Part shown: one piece after another, positions 1,476 to 40,107 of the stretch
Position numbering within the stretch: the stretch's first letter is position 1
Layout of the letters: each line of letters opens with the position of its first letter
Assembly: GCA_014338185.1 (NCBI GenBank)
Contig: QUBV01000023.1
Span: 1 to 40,724, forward strand
Length of the DNA: 40,724 nucleotides
From: Lysobacterales bacterium
GTDB taxonomy: Bacteria; Pseudomonadota; Gammaproteobacteria; Xanthomonadales; Rhodanobacteraceae
Direction of reading: 5' to 3'
Notes under the pieces: generated by a model
The model's database searches: none
Told to the model about the DNA's origin: nothing
What the model saw: only the letters and a program-made list of their open reading frames with translations
Translations under genes and position numbers: made by a program

Positions 1476-2012
1476 TCACCACTCGAGCCAGTGGCAGGCG
1501 CCGTCGGCGTACACGCCGAAGTGGACCACGCCGGCAGCCGTGCCGCCGCTGCGCAGGCTCAGTCCGTCGGCGCCCGCATCGAGCGACAGCAGCGGCTCGG
1601 CCACGAGTGCGCGCAGCTCGGCCATGCGCTGCCTCGCGGCGGCGCCGCCGACGCCGCCCCAGTGCATCATCGCGGCGATCGCGTTGGCATCGTGGCGCGC
1701 GATCGCCGCGAGCATGCGCTCGCGCAGTTCGGCGCCGCTGCGCGCGCATTCGTCGGCGCGCGGCAGGTCGGCGGCCGCAGCCGCGGCCGCTGCCGTGACC
1801 GCACTGGCTTCCTCGCTGCAGCGCAGGCCGCTGAACACGATCTCGCCGTTGTGGCCGACGCAGCGATGCACGCGCTGGCCGGTGTCACCGGCCGGCGCTG
1901 CGCCAGGCAGCAGCAGCGCGAGCAGCAGCAGGCCCGCCGCAGGCGGGCGCCGGCGCCCGGCGCCGCCCGGGTGGCTTGCACGGCGCGCGCCGACGTGTTC
2001 TAGTTGGCCCAT
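1476..2012 (-). CDS. small secreted protein with DUF4124-like N-terminus
   Basis: About 178 residues. A basic stretch rich in Arg is followed by a hydrophobic core (AAGLLLLALLLPGAAPA), as in a signal peptide, so the product is probably periplasmic. The mature N-terminus (RVHRCVGHNGEIVFSGLRC) resembles the DUF4124 pattern: an aromatic or basic residue, Cys, a short hairpin, then a second Cys. The rest is Ala-rich and helical and ends in HWLEW. The start is uncertain: ATG at 2012 or 2024 (reverse strand), neither with a good ribosome site. The 5' end abuts or overlaps the candidate leader frame that starts at 2011 on the other strand. Function unknown. Confidence 0.6.
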   Translation of the reverse strand: MGQLEHVGARRASHPGGAGRRRPPAAGLLLLALLLPGAAPAGDTGQRVHRCVGHNGEIVFSGLRCSEEASAVTAAAAAAAADLPRADECARSGAELRERMLAAIARHDANAIAAMMHWGGVGGAAARQRMAELRALVAEPLLSLDAGADGLSLRSGGTAAGVVHFGVYADGACHWLEW

Positions 2013-2124
2013 GACTTCGCCCATGCGCCCGATTGTGCCCAGCCTCGCCGCCGCTGTCGCGGGCGTCGCGCTGCGCAATCGCCGCAACAATAATCCGTGG
2101 CCGCTAAGCGGGGCTCGCGTGTAG
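2011..2124 (+). CDS. candidate asparagine leader peptide upstream of asnB
   Basis: An open frame of up to 37 codons (ATG at 2011, or 2023) ends at TAG 2122-2124. It carries four Asn codons close together: AAT 2077-2079, then AAC AAT AAT at 2086-2094 (peptide ...LRNRRNNNPWPL...). It lies just upstream of a terminator hairpin (2149-2176) and the asparagine synthetase gene (2272). This is the layout of an attenuation leader peptide whose ribosome stalls when charged tRNA-Asn is scarce. The segment 2107-2115, just past the Asn codons, can pair with the 5' arm of the terminator. Weak points: no strong ribosome site before either ATG, and no clear promoter. No protein evidence can be claimed. Confidence 0.5.
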   Translation: MTSPMRPIVPSLAAAVAGVALRNRRNNNPWPLSGARV

Positions 2125-2160
2125 GCGAAAGTTGCAACCGACACGATACGAAGGCCCGCT
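2107..2160 (+). promoter_or_regulatory. candidate antiterminator of the asnB leader
   Basis: Bases 2107-2112 (AGCGGG) pair perfectly with 2155-2160 (CCCGCT). After one mismatch, CT at 2114-2115 pairs with AG at 2152-2153. The downstream strand is also the 5' arm of the terminator, so the two hairpins exclude each other. A ribosome halted at Asn codons 2086-2094 would leave 2107-2115 free; one that reached the stop at 2122 would cover it. This is pairing read by eye; no folding energy was calculated. Confidence 0.45.
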
Positions 2161-2183
2161 CGAATGCGGGCCTTCGGCGTTTT
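2149..2183 (+). terminator. Rho-independent terminator/attenuator before asnB
   Basis: A perfect 11-bp stem (CGAAGGCCCGC at 2149-2159 with its complement at 2166-2176) has a six-base loop. Three bases later comes a run of four T (2180-2183). It lies about 90 bases before the asnB start and after the Asn-rich leader frame. No other plus-strand gene upstream needs a terminator here, which favours an attenuator role. The T run is short, as is common in such GC-rich genomes. Confidence 0.65.
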
Positions 2184-2271
2184 GGGGTCCGCGACACGGG
2201 ATTCGTCGCCGCGGCTGGAACGGAACTCCAGCCGCGTTTGCGCGATGCAGGGAGGCTGCTGGAGTACCCCC

Positions 2272-3969
2272 ATGTGTTCGATCTTTGGAATGTTTGACCT
2301 GCAGCCGGGCGACGACCTCGCCGCGCTGCGCCGGCAGGCGCTGGAATGCTCGCAGCGCCAGCGCCACCGCGGCCCTGACTGGAGCGGCGTGCATGTCGAT
2401 GCCGGCGTGATCCTCGTGCACGAGCGCCTGGCCATCGTCGATCCGGCCAGCGGCGCGCAGCCGCTGCGCTCGCGCGACGGCGCGCTCGCGCTCGCGGTCA
2501 ACGGCGAGATCTACAACCACGCCGCGCTGCGCGCGGACAGCGGCTACGACTTCACCAGCGGCTCGGACTGCGAGGTCGTCAACGCGCTGTACCGCGACGC
2601 GGGCGCGACGCCGCCCGCGCACTGGCTGGCGCGGCTCAACGGCATCTTCGCCTTCGCCCTGTGGGATGGCGCGAGCGGCCGCTATCTCGTTGCACGCGAT
2701 CCCATCGGCGTGTGCCCGCTGTACTGGGGCCACGACACGCAGGGCCGGCTGTGCGTGGCCTCGGAGATGAAGGCGCTGGTCGATCTGTGTGCCGACGTGT
2801 GCGAGTTCCCGCCCGGCCACGTCTACGACAGCGCCGACGGCTCGCTCACGCGCTGGTACGCGCGACCGTGGCGCGAGCATGCGCACACGCGCGGGGTGCG
2901 GATCGAGCCGGCCGCGCTGCGCGGCGCGTTCGAGGCCGCGGTGCATCGCCAGCTCATGACCGACGTGCCCTACGGCGTGCTGCTGTCGGGCGGACTGGAC
3001 TCGTCGCTGGTCGCCGCCTGCGCGGCGCGCTATGCGCGTGCGCGCATCGAGGACGGCGACCGCAGCGAGGCCTGGTGGCCGCGCCTGCACTCGTTCGCGA
3101 TCGGCCTGGACGGCTCGCCCGACCTCGCCGCCGCGCGCGTGGCCGCCACGGCGCTGGGCACGGTGCACCACGAGTTCGTGTACAGCTTCGCCGAGGGACT
3201 GGACGCACTGCCCGAGGTGATCCGCCACATCGAGACCTACGACGTCACCACCATCCGTGCCTCCACGCCGATGTTCCTGCTGGCGCGCCGCATCAAGGCG
3301 ATGGGCGTGAAGATGGTGCTGTCGGGCGAAGGCTCCGACGAGATCTTCGGTGGCTACCTGTACTTCCACAAGGCGCCGTCGGCGCAGGCCTTCCACGACG
3401 AAACCGTGCGCAAGCTCGACGCGCTGCATGCGTATGACTGCCTGCGCGCGAACAAGGCGATGATGGCCTGGGGCGTGGAGGCGCGCGTGCCGTTCCTCGA
3501 CCTGGAGTTCCTCGACGTGGCGATGGCGATGGATGCCACGCACAAGATGGCCGGGGTGCAGGCCGACGGCACGCGCCGCATCGAGAAGGCGGTGCTGCGC
3601 GAGGCGTTCGCGGGCGTGCTGCCCGAGTCGATCCTGTGGCGGCAGAAGGAGCAGTTCAGCGACGGCGTCGGCTACGGCTGGATCGACGGCCTCAAGGCGC
3701 ACGCCGCGCAGGTGGTGGGCGACCGCGAGTTCGCGGCGGCCGCCGCGCGCTTCCCGTTCAACACGCCCGCGACCAAGGAGGCCTACCTGTACCGCTCGAT
3801 CTTCGAGCGCCACTTTCCGGGCCCGGCCTGCGCGGCGACGGTGCCCGGCGGAAAGTCGATCGCGTGTTCGTCACCGGCGGCGCTGGAATGGGACCCGGCC
3901 TTTGCCCACGCGGCCGATCCGTCCGGCCGCTCGGTCACCGGCGTGCATGCAGCCGCGGTGGCGGCGTGA
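2272..3969 (+). CDS. asnB: glutamine-hydrolysing asparagine synthetase
   Basis: A 565-residue class II glutamine amidotransferase that makes asparagine from aspartate, ATP and glutamine; E. coli AsnB is about 554 residues. The start (ATG 2272, GGAG eight bases upstream) places the nucleophile as Cys2 in MCSIFGMFD. The glutaminase domain shows the RHRGPD motif (about residues 31-36) and NGEIYNH (about 78-84). The synthetase domain has the PP-loop SGGLDS (239-244) and a conserved GEGSDEIFGGYLYF stretch. The last 30 or so residues are less conserved. A possible Asn-codon leader and terminator lie directly upstream, suggesting transcription attenuation in response to charged tRNA-Asn. The gene converges on metF. 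Confidence 0.95.
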   Translation: MCSIFGMFDLQPGDDLAALRRQALECSQRQRHRGPDWSGVHVDAGVILVHERLAIVDPASGAQPLRSRDGALALAVNGEIYNHAALRADSGYDFTSGSDCEVVNALYRDAGATPPAHWLARLNGIFAFALWDGASGRYLVARDPIGVCPLYWGHDTQGRLCVASEMKALVDLCADVCEFPPGHVYDSADGSLTRWYARPWREHAHTRGVRIEPAALRGAFEAAVHRQLMTDVPYGVLLSGGLDSSLVAACAARYARARIEDGDRSEAWWPRLHSFAIGLDGSPDLAAARVAATALGTVHHEFVYSFAEGLDALPEVIRHIETYDVTTIRASTPMFLLARRIKAMGVKMVLSGEGSDEIFGGYLYFHKAPSAQAFHDETVRKLDALHAYDCLRANKAMMAWGVEARVPFLDLEFLDVAMAMDATHKMAGVQADGTRRIEKAVLREAFAGVLPESILWRQKEQFSDGVGYGWIDGLKAHAAQVVGDREFAAAAARFPFNTPATKEAYLYRSIFERHFPGPACAATVPGGKSIACSSPAALEWDPAFAHAADPSGRSVTGVHAAAVAA

Positions 3970-29440: not shown

Positions 29441-29630
29441 GGTGTCCTCTACGGTTCCCGGCAGCGCACTCTTACATATTGCCTTGTTCCTATGAACGAC
29501 CCGGGTCGGCTCCACGCCGCCATTGTGCAAGTCCGCCACGAGCGGAAAGCCTGCAGGCGACGTCGGCCCTCCCACCTGATCCTCAGGATCAAGGTCGTTT
29601 GATGCGCACCGGCTCCTGTGGAGGACATCT
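29441..29630 (+). ncRNA. ssrS: 6S RNA
   Basis: About 188 nt between zapA and fau, the conserved place for ssrS in gammaproteobacteria. The ends pair: TGTCCTC (29443-29449) with GAGGACA (29622-29628), forming the closing stem. The inside is GC-rich with a weakly paired centre (ACTCTTACATATTGCC on one side, ACCTGATCCTCAGGATCAAG on the other), as expected for the promoter-mimic bubble. 6S RNA binds the sigma-70 form of RNA polymerase in stationary phase. Exact ends are estimated from the closing stem. Confidence 0.85.
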
Positions 29631-34710: not shown

Positions 34711-34775
34711 AGTCCCCCAGCCACGAATACAAAGCCCCGCTCGGGGCGGGGCTTTGTATTCGTGGCTGGGGGACT
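34711..34775 (-). terminator. perfect 30-bp palindrome; terminator of the rplM-rpsI-tRNA unit
   Basis: Bases 34711-34740 are the exact reverse complement of 34746-34775, with a five-base loop. On the minus strand the inner part reads AAAGCCCCGC, loop, GCGGGGCTTT, a normal Rho-independent terminator just after the tRNA. The outer 13 bases of the right arm are the 3' end of tRNA-Gln (AGTCCCCCAGCCA); the left arm is an inverted copy of it. So the palindrome reaches into the mature tRNA and could compete with its acceptor stem. Confidence 0.75.
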
Positions 34776-34836
34776 AGGATTCGAACCTAGATAAACGGAG
34801 TCAGAGTCCGTTGTCCTACCATTAGACGATCCCCCA
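34763..34836 (-). tRNA. tRNA-Gln (anticodon CTG)
   Basis: 74 nt with encoded CCA (34763-34765). All four arms fold: acceptor TGGGGGA with TCCCCCA; D stem GTC/GAC; anticodon stem ACGGA/TCCGT with loop CTCTGAC, anticodon CUG at 34802-34804; T arm CTAGG/CCTAG with loop TTCGAAT. The discriminator base is G and the first base U, as in E. coli tRNA-Gln. It starts only 15 bases after the rpsI stop, with no room for its own promoter, so it is likely cut from the ribosomal-protein transcript. Confidence 0.95.
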
Positions 34837-38508: not shown

Positions 38509-40107
38509 ATGTATCTGGAGTACTACGGGCTGCGCGAGGCGCCGTTCTCGATCACGCCCGACCCGCGCTACGTATTCCTCTCGGATCGCCACCGGGATGC
38601 GCTCGCGCACCTGCTCTATGGCATCGGCAAGGGCGGCAGCGGCGGCTTCGTGCAGCTCACCGGCGAGGTCGGCACCGGCAAGACCACGCTGTGCCGCCTG
38701 CTGCTGGAGCAGTTGCCGGAGAACACCCGCGTCGCACTCGTGCTCAACCCCAAGCTGTCGCCGGTGGAACTGGTCGAGGCGGTGTGCGAGGAACTCAAGC
38801 TCGACATCGCCGGCAAGCACGGCAGCCTCAAGGCGCTCACCGACACGCTCAACGCCTTTCTGCTCGATGCCTACGCGCAGGGCCTGCGCGTGGTGCTCAT
38901 CGTCGACGAGGCGCAGAACCTGTCGACCGAGTCGCTGGAACAGGTGCGCCTGCTCACCAACCTGGAAACCCCCACCCAGAAGCTGCTGCAGATCATCCTG
39001 CTCGGCCAACCCGAACTGCGCGAACTCCTGGAGCGGCCCGAGCTGCGCCAGCTCGCGCAACGCATCACCGCGCGCTACCACCTCACCCCGCTCGATGCGG
39101 CCGAAACCGAGGCCTATGTGCGCCATCGCATGGCGGTGGCCGGCTGCACGCGCCAGCCGTTCTCGCGGCTTGGACTCAAGGCGCTGTATCGCCGCTCCGG
39201 CGGCATCCCGCGGCTCATCAACATCATTGCCGACCGTGCCCTGATGGCCGGCTATGCGCGCGAGCAGGCGAGCCTGGGCGAGCGCCTGGTCGACCGCGCC
39301 GCCGACGAGACCCTGCCCGGCCACGCGCGCTACTGGCTGCGCCGCCACGGTAGCTGGGCCGCGCTGCTGGTGCTGACACTGGCCGCAGCGGCCGGCACCT
39401 GGGCGTGGCAACAGCGCACGCCGCCCTCCGCGTTCGTGAGCGAACCGGCCCCGGCCACCGCCACGCCCGCACCGGCCGATGACGCCGCCCAGGCGCTGCG
39501 CGATGCGCTCGCCGCTGCTCCCGACACCGCGTTGTTCGCGTTCACCCAGTTGCTCGCGCGCTGGCATGTCGACGCCGAAACGGTGTCGGTACGCGATGCC
39601 GCGCGTTGTCCTGCATTGGTCGCACCCGGCCTGGCCTGCCTGCGTGGCCGCGCCTCGCTCGACCAGCTCGCGCGCTTCGATCGGCCACTGATCCTGCTGC
39701 TGGGCAAGGCGCCACGCGAAACCCACGCGTTGTTGCAAGGCGTGGGCAAGGATCGCGTGCGCATCGACCTGGCCGGCCAGCGCCATGAGCTGTCGCGCGC
39801 ATCGCTGGGCGAGCTGTGGGACGGCGGTTTCACCGTGCTGTGGCGCGTGCCCACCGACGTGCCCGCGCGGCTGGAACGCGGCGCGGTCGGGCCGGGCGTG
39901 GCATGGGCGCTGGATCGCCTCAAGGCCTTCGACGGCGGCACCGGCGCCACACCAGGCGCGAGCTTCGATGCCGCGATGCAGGCGCGCATCGAAAAGCTGC
40001 AGCAGGCCTTCGGTATTCGCGCCGATGGCATCATCGGACCGGAAACCCTGTTCGCACTGTCGGCACTCGACGACAGCGGTCCGCACCTGTCACGCACCAT
40101 GGACTGA
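38509..40107 (+). CDS. gspA: type II secretion accessory ATPase GspA/ExeA
   Basis: 532 residues. Begins MYLEYYGLREAPFSITPDPR, the standard start of the ExeA family. An AAA ATPase covers residues about 1-270: Walker A GEVGTGKTT (52-60), Walker B LIVDEAQNL (about 131-139) and sensor GGIPRLINIIAD. One membrane helix (about 281-302) leads to a periplasmic part ending in a peptidoglycan-binding domain (about 488-522, KLQQAFGIRADGIIGPETLF). With GspB it helps the secretin of type II secretion assemble through the cell wall. The gspB gene starts 134 bases later. Confidence 0.93.
   Translation: MYLEYYGLREAPFSITPDPRYVFLSDRHRDALAHLLYGIGKGGSGGFVQLTGEVGTGKTTLCRLLLEQLPENTRVALVLNPKLSPVELVEAVCEELKLDIAGKHGSLKALTDTLNAFLLDAYAQGLRVVLIVDEAQNLSTESLEQVRLLTNLETPTQKLLQIILLGQPELRELLERPELRQLAQRITARYHLTPLDAAETEAYVRHRMAVAGCTRQPFSRLGLKALYRRSGGIPRLINIIADRALMAGYAREQASLGERLVDRAADETLPGHARYWLRRHGSWAALLVLTLAAAAGTWAWQQRTPPSAFVSEPAPATATPAPADDAAQALRDALAAAPDTALFAFTQLLARWHVDAETVSVRDAARCPALVAPGLACLRGRASLDQLARFDRPLILLLGKAPRETHALLQGVGKDRVRIDLAGQRHELSRASLGELWDGGFTVLWRVPTDVPARLERGAVGPGVAWALDRLKAFDGGTGATPGASFDAAMQARIEKLQQAFGIRADGIIGPETLFALSALDDSGPHLSRTMD

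Follow-up and report, generated by a model that had tools for sequence, protein, structure and literature searches.

The window, by which we mean the whole stretch of 40,724 nucleotides of Dokdonella DNA analysed here, carries on its forward strand a gene for the glutamine-hydrolysing asparagine synthase B (asnB, 2272-3969; 824.6 bits against NF006949, cut-off 499), the single match of its kind in its own genome. The encoded AsnB (2272-3966) contains 6 Asn among 565 residues, all specified by AAC, and the enzyme seems poor in its own product. The same genome encodes an asparaginyl-tRNA synthetase (asnS, 623.8 bits, above the cut-off) and lacks gatB; AsnRS also scored above the cut-off in 114 of 121 genomes of the order. 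With asnS present and gatB absent, the charging of tRNA-Asn depends on free asparagine, and sensing of tRNA-Asn charging therefore makes sense. The region upstream of asnB contains the following elements, all on the plus strand:

1976-1981, plus strand: -35 element TTGCAC of the putative leader promoter, assigned from the TTGC found at a conserved distance before the leader ATG in relatives
1996-2004, plus strand: putative extended -10 element TGTTCTAGT, assigned from a TGnTCTAGT-like block in the ungapped profile of 76 upstream regions
2011-2124, plus strand: leader open reading frame MTSPMRPIVPSLAAAVAGVALRNRRNNNPWPLSGARV, 37 codons and stop, its start predicted to be the 5' end of the mRNA
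2023, plus strand: alternative in-frame leader start ATG
2077-2094, plus strand: candidate regulatory Asn codons, AAT at 2077-2079 and AAC AAT AAT at 2086-2094, read directly and conserved
2107-2115, plus strand: strand 2, AGCGGGGCT, 5' side of the candidate antiterminator, in which AGCGGG pairs with 2155-2160
2118-2122, plus strand: 5' side (CGTGT) of a candidate second antiterminator helix, reaching into the stop codon, from folding and a shuffled-spacer test
2122-2124, plus strand: leader stop codon TAG, read directly
2141-2145, plus strand: 3' side (ACACG) of the second antiterminator helix, from the same folding and shuffled-spacer test
2149-2160, plus strand: strand 3, comprising the terminator 5' arm (2149-2159, CGAAGGCCCGC) and shared with the antiterminator (2155-2160)
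2166-2176, plus strand: strand 4, GCGGGCCTTCG, the terminator 3' arm, read directly and backed by compensatory changes
2180-2183, plus strand: T run of the intrinsic terminator, four T and weak, read directly
2261-2264, plus strand: candidate asnB ribosome site GGAG
2272-3969, plus strand: asnB (NF006949)

A sequence-only reading of this DNA had proposed an asparagine-specific transcription attenuator, and direct reading confirmed the coordinates it gave for the Asn codons, the 2107-2115 strand and the 11-bp terminator. The terminator stem closes a 6-nt loop, and the competing helix comprises 6 bp between AGCGGG (2107-2112) and CCCGCT (2155-2160), with two pairs more from the remainder of strand 2 beyond a G-G mismatch. 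The leader stop codon lies 147 nt upstream of asnB. The weaknesses conceded in that reading are real: there is no clear Shine-Dalgarno site before the leader, and the T run is limited to four T. Strict consensus scans of 1900-2300 found neither a promoter nor a terminator. The leader region matched no Rfam family at the gathering score, the whole window yielding 6S RNA and tRNA alone. A density of at least 4 Asn per 12 stop-free codons occurs in the leader and at one other place in all six frames of the 40.7-kb window, namely at 39516-39566 on the minus strand, within a longer open frame.

Several other features were seen in passing. A perfect 10-bp inverted repeat (CGCGGCTGGA / TCCAGCCGCG) followed by TTT occupies 2210-2236, between the attenuator terminator and asnB, and in some relatives this gap holds other hairpins or repeats. 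The 6S RNA lies at 29443-29628 (plus strand), and a minus-strand tRNA gene at 34726-34836 adjoins a terminator-like hairpin that scores on both strands.

We compared the leader with the best 80 of 462 asnB loci from a scan of genome contigs, a set that includes named Dokdonella, Rhodanobacter, Dyella, Frateuria and Fulvimonas strains. An open reading frame with at least 3 Asn per 12 codons was found in 77 of the 80 loci, its stop codon 86-444 nt upstream of asnB, and the remaining three have short upstream DNA (60, 123 and 250 nt). The 250-nt stretch of one of these, L105, which encodes a close AsnB, holds no Asn cluster, so its leader is further out or absent. Of 299 genomes surveyed across the order, 213 have asnB, and among 60 upstream regions taken from this survey the leader was present in 20 of 20 from the family of the window (f1), 29 of 29 from a second family (f2, probably Xanthomonadaceae), 3 of 3 from a third (f3) and 0 of 8 from a further family (f10). 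Altogether, the leader architecture precedes asnB in 130 of 130 usable f1-f3 regions, the window included, all with a close AsnB (at least 73% identity); these regions reduce to 117 distinct leaders (115-117 distinct rows), the surveyed f1 regions partly repeat genomes of the 80-locus set, and the counts are uncorrected for kinship between loci. At least 4 Asn per 12 codons occur in 126 of the 130 leaders, while the next-best forward-frame reading frame of the same regions attains a maximum of 3, reached in 12 of 130. As the sequence-only reading had anticipated for relatives, the Asn codons are kept while the remainder of the leader varies. The rarity of such Asn density in the window, together with the recurrence of the architecture in 130 of 130 regions, argues against chance.

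The f10 regions, which we excluded from the pairing tests, have a different gene arrangement without an Asn leader. In seven of the eight (L187-L191, L193 and L200) the top-scoring upstream frame stops 9-25 nt before asnB, and L192 has 3 Asn per 12 codons at a distance of 356 nt. From 21 divergent AsnB homologues (61-66% identity) 18 loci could be placed, L276, L277 and L287 not being placeable at the start codon. None of the 18 placed loci has such a leader, with one borderline case, L272, and six of the leader-free ones belong to f1 or f2 genomes, which indicates that the leader follows the type of AsnB and not the family as such. At L272 (f8) a short reading frame with 4 Asn per 12 codons (NTINTTNN) lies 78 nt before the divergent asnB and is possibly an independent leader.

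A covariance model of the leader gave, among the matches listed, a full-length match with E ≤1.5e-7 in 93 of 144 family genomes, one per genome; the other 51 had no match or weaker ones. All 30 full-length copies that were checked adjoin asnB, 17-158 nt upstream. The own genome of the window contains one strong match, the window leader itself (79.9 bits), followed by a match at 27.7 bits to the terminator alone. We rejected a second leader copy before another gene, since the next own-genome matches mostly cover the generic GGCCCGC terminator and the few others of full length have E values no better than 0.38. Searches of the class Gammaproteobacteria for the leader elsewhere returned few close AsnB homologues, and the one inspected by eye, L203, showed none.

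The codon usage points to the encoded residue. The 117 distinct leaders contain 433 AAC and 346 AAT codons (779 for Asn), compared with 7 AAA and 11 AAG (18 for Lys), counted over at most the last 40 leader codons. Asn takes up 16.9% of the codons in the leader frame and 0.3% in the other two frames. Selection thus acts on the residue Asn, rather than on a base string or on A-richness.

The missing ribosome site finds a likely explanation in the position of the promoter. In 119 of 129 related regions an in-frame leader ATG is preceded by TTGC at a distance of 29-40 nt, and in 120 of 123 instances this distance is 34-38 nt; as a background, 161 of the 1028 ATGs in the same regions, leader ATGs included, have TTGC at that distance. 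Of the remaining ten regions, seven carry TTGT in this position. L154 apparently starts with GTG; L087 and L092 lack an ATG where one is expected, and L092 probably starts with GTG as well. The TGnTCTAGT-like block ends at about -7, and of the 77 loci with a leader in the 80-locus set, 75 have an ATG that yields a leader of 35-45 residues. The window has the same order, TTGCAC (1976-1981), a 17-nt spacer, TCTAGT (1999-2004) and the ATG at 2011. At the usual spacing, this promoter position would have transcription begin with the A of the leader ATG. The leader mRNA is therefore probably leaderless and translated from its first base, and a ribosome site would be missing because the promoter puts the start of the mRNA on the ATG.

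About ten leaders, mainly from Rhodanobacter (L041, L047, L051, L054, L057, L063, L067, L069, L078 and L083), carry a ATGGACGTCCAATCTG-like block in the spacer between the -35 and -10 elements, often with a GGACGTCC palindrome. The block is possibly an operator or an element that has spread.

As for the RNA structures, the terminator is conserved with 99.4% of cells paired in 78 f1 sequences, and 3 of its 10 pairs have changed on both sides. The antiterminator of f1, formed by GGCGGGCC from the last leader codons and GGCCCGCC from the terminator 5' arm, pairs in 96.3% of cells; it is conserved with zero doubly changed pairs and exceeds shuffles on no measure. When windows were chosen for best pairing (115 rows, L032 being unscored), strand 2 ATGCGGG faced strand 3 CCCGCAT in 10 of 27 distinct f2 rows, and strands 2, 3 and 4 read GCAGG, CCTGC and GCAGG in L175 and L199. 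An unbiased cross-family MAFFT alignment of 37 sequences (32 from f2 and f3, 5 from f1) gave an antiterminator covariation of 0.182 as compared with 0.093 after shuffling, and 27 doubly changed cells as compared with 12.0, neither value being reached in 500 shuffles. Counted as whole pairs, the double changes (4 of 9) did not exceed the shuffles (mean 3.5, 271 of 500). In this alignment 76.4% of the antiterminator cells pair, the outermost positions being unpaired in 19 and 23 of the 37 rows, and the strand-3 columns that covary with strand 2 covary with strand 4 as well. The expectation that both pairings should covary among relatives was accordingly borne out for the terminator and, across families, for the antiterminator, but not for the antiterminator within f1.

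Swapping strands between loci gave a similar picture. In f2 and f3 (n=30) the own 2:3 pairing had a mean energy of -19.65 kcal/mol as opposed to -16.45 kcal/mol for swapped strands (0 of 5000 as good), an average cost of 3.2 kcal/mol, whereas in f1, where the strands are near-invariant, own strands had no advantage (2946 of 5000 permutations as good); relatedness is uncorrected in both cases. Across families, strands 2, 3 and 4 change in concert. The second helix, between the region of the stop codon and the spacer, has a mean energy of -9.1 kcal/mol versus -5.6 kcal/mol with shuffled spacers and reaches z < -1.64 in 42 of 76 sequences, but the helix of the window does not stand out from shuffles (z -0.66). 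In f1, two sequences have a doubly changed pair, one in number, in another register of this helix. On inspection by eye some leaders contain a 1:2 protector hairpin, which we rejected on a mean z of -0.67, with 13 of 115 below -1.64.

To relate these pairings to the position of the ribosome, we took a ribosome to cover 11 nt downstream of its A-site codon. On this assumption, stalling at Asn would keep the antiterminator strand accessible, and a ribosome that had reached the stop codon would cover it. When the ribosome was placed midway through the Asn cluster and the transcript extended as far as the terminator loop, strand 3 was paired with the leader in 129 of 130 sequences, the exception being L198, a count that discriminates weakly because shuffled leaders reach 5 paired nucleotides in 71% of trials. 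The energies of these partial transcripts are more telling, at -27.6 kcal/mol compared with -19.2 kcal/mol for shuffled leaders, and 130 of 130 lie below the mean of their own controls. Placing the ribosome at the stop codon masks the leader by construction; in 130 of 130 its footprint stops short of strand 3, so that the terminator can form. The window folds into the antiterminator in the stalled state (2106-2165, -23.0 kcal/mol) and into the terminator with the ribosome at the stop codon (2136-2185, -30.5 kcal/mol). The untranslated RNA folds to the terminator as well, and with strand 4 present the stalled RNA, too, has the terminator as its fold of lowest energy (2106-2185, -40.1 kcal/mol). 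Since the terminator wins at equilibrium even when the ribosome is stalled, the switch must be kinetic, with the antiterminator forming first.

We conclude that asnB is very likely controlled by an Asn-specific, ribosome-mediated transcription attenuator of the trp/his type (probability about 0.91), as the sequence-only reading suggested and as the conserved leader, its Asn codons, the promoter position and the two alternative pairings indicate. We infer the 5' end, translation, stalling, the kinetic choice of hairpin and the response to Asn from these patterns. Transcription would begin on the A of the leader ATG or on a neighbouring base, and a ribosome would start translating at the 5' end so produced. 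When charged Asn-tRNA is ample, the ribosome would reach the stop codon (2122) and cover strand 2, so that strands 3 and 4 form the terminator and asnB is left untranscribed. When it is scarce, the ribosome would stall at 2086-2094 and leave strand 2 (2107-2115) free to pair with strand 3 before strand 4 is made, which would permit read-through into asnB.

Other explanations account less well for the same observations. The Asn-rich reading frame might be real and act mainly on asnB translation or mRNA stability by upstream-ORF coupling, the hairpin being an ordinary terminator of a small RNA. The variable distance between the leader stop and asnB over the 77 loci may be counted in favour of this explanation, but coupling is unlikely across the 147 nt of the window, and the joint change of strands 2, 3 and 4 across families is well explained by alternative pairing at the terminator; we consider such coupling improbable. 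A terminator with a competing helix ahead of a gene also resembles a riboswitch, and a metabolite- or tRNA-binding RNA (riboswitch or T-box) could read asparagine directly. Yet no Rfam family reached its gathering score, and a main conserved feature outside the hairpins is a set of Asn codons in a single frame with the third base free, which makes direct reading of asparagine even less probable. Least credible of all is that Asn codons and hairpins came together by chance in GC-rich DNA and regulate nothing: the modest T run and antiterminator of the window and the empty strict scans for promoter and terminator would fit it, but it is contradicted by conservation in three families together with a conserved promoter position.

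Leader-peptide attenuators in Proteobacteria control the trp, his, thr, ilv, leu and phe operons. The asnB leader shares with them a short open reading frame rich in codons for the product, a biosynthetic target, the alternative 2:3 and 3:4 pairing and an intrinsic terminator. Unlike them, it would sense Asn, has no clear Shine-Dalgarno site, is predicted to be leaderless and lacks support for a 1:2 hairpin. We know of no leader-peptide attenuation in Proteobacteria that senses asparagine. The mechanism is a familiar one; what is new, to our knowledge, is its amino acid and its predicted leaderless form in this group. If correct, the attenuator fills the asparagine gap among the proteobacterial leader-peptide attenuators and explains asnB control in at least three bacterial families. 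The sequence-only reading knew of no established Asn case in this group, and our search of the open-access full-text literature likewise found no Asn leader-peptide attenuator, although a prediction in subscription papers or supplementary tables is possible. Asparagine is unmentioned in the main text of a survey of premature terminators (PMC2965389) and of a survey of 26 genomes (PMC8632094).

The closest proteobacterial parallel for the predicted start is the attenuator RNA rnTrpL of Sinorhizobium meliloti, in which the 5' end is reported to coincide with the ATG of the trpL leader ORF (PMC7298713). The asnB leader would share this 5' end on the leader ATG and, if so, would add to Sinorhizobium trpL a further proteobacterial leader peptide seemingly translated without a ribosome site. 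The trpL system differs in sensing Trp, in its 14-residue peptide, in belonging to an alphaproteobacterium and in the trans roles described for the rnTrpL RNA and the peTrpL peptide (PMC7298713). It is conceivable, though rather unlikely, that the terminated asnB leader RNA (~170 nt, released when Asn is plentiful) would by analogy serve as a leaderless mRNA and a trans-acting regulatory RNA besides its control in cis; if so, it would provide a dedicated asparagine-status signal in these bacteria. Among mycobacteria, candidate leaders of cys operons without conserved terminator hairpins are described (PMC1262725), and leaderless polycysteine short ORFs are reported to attenuate downstream genes (Canestrari et al., 2020, as cited in PMC9031893). 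These polycysteine ORFs resemble the asnB leader in their leaderless form, predicted in the case of asnB, and in the clustered codons of one amino acid, and differ from it in that this amino acid is cysteine.
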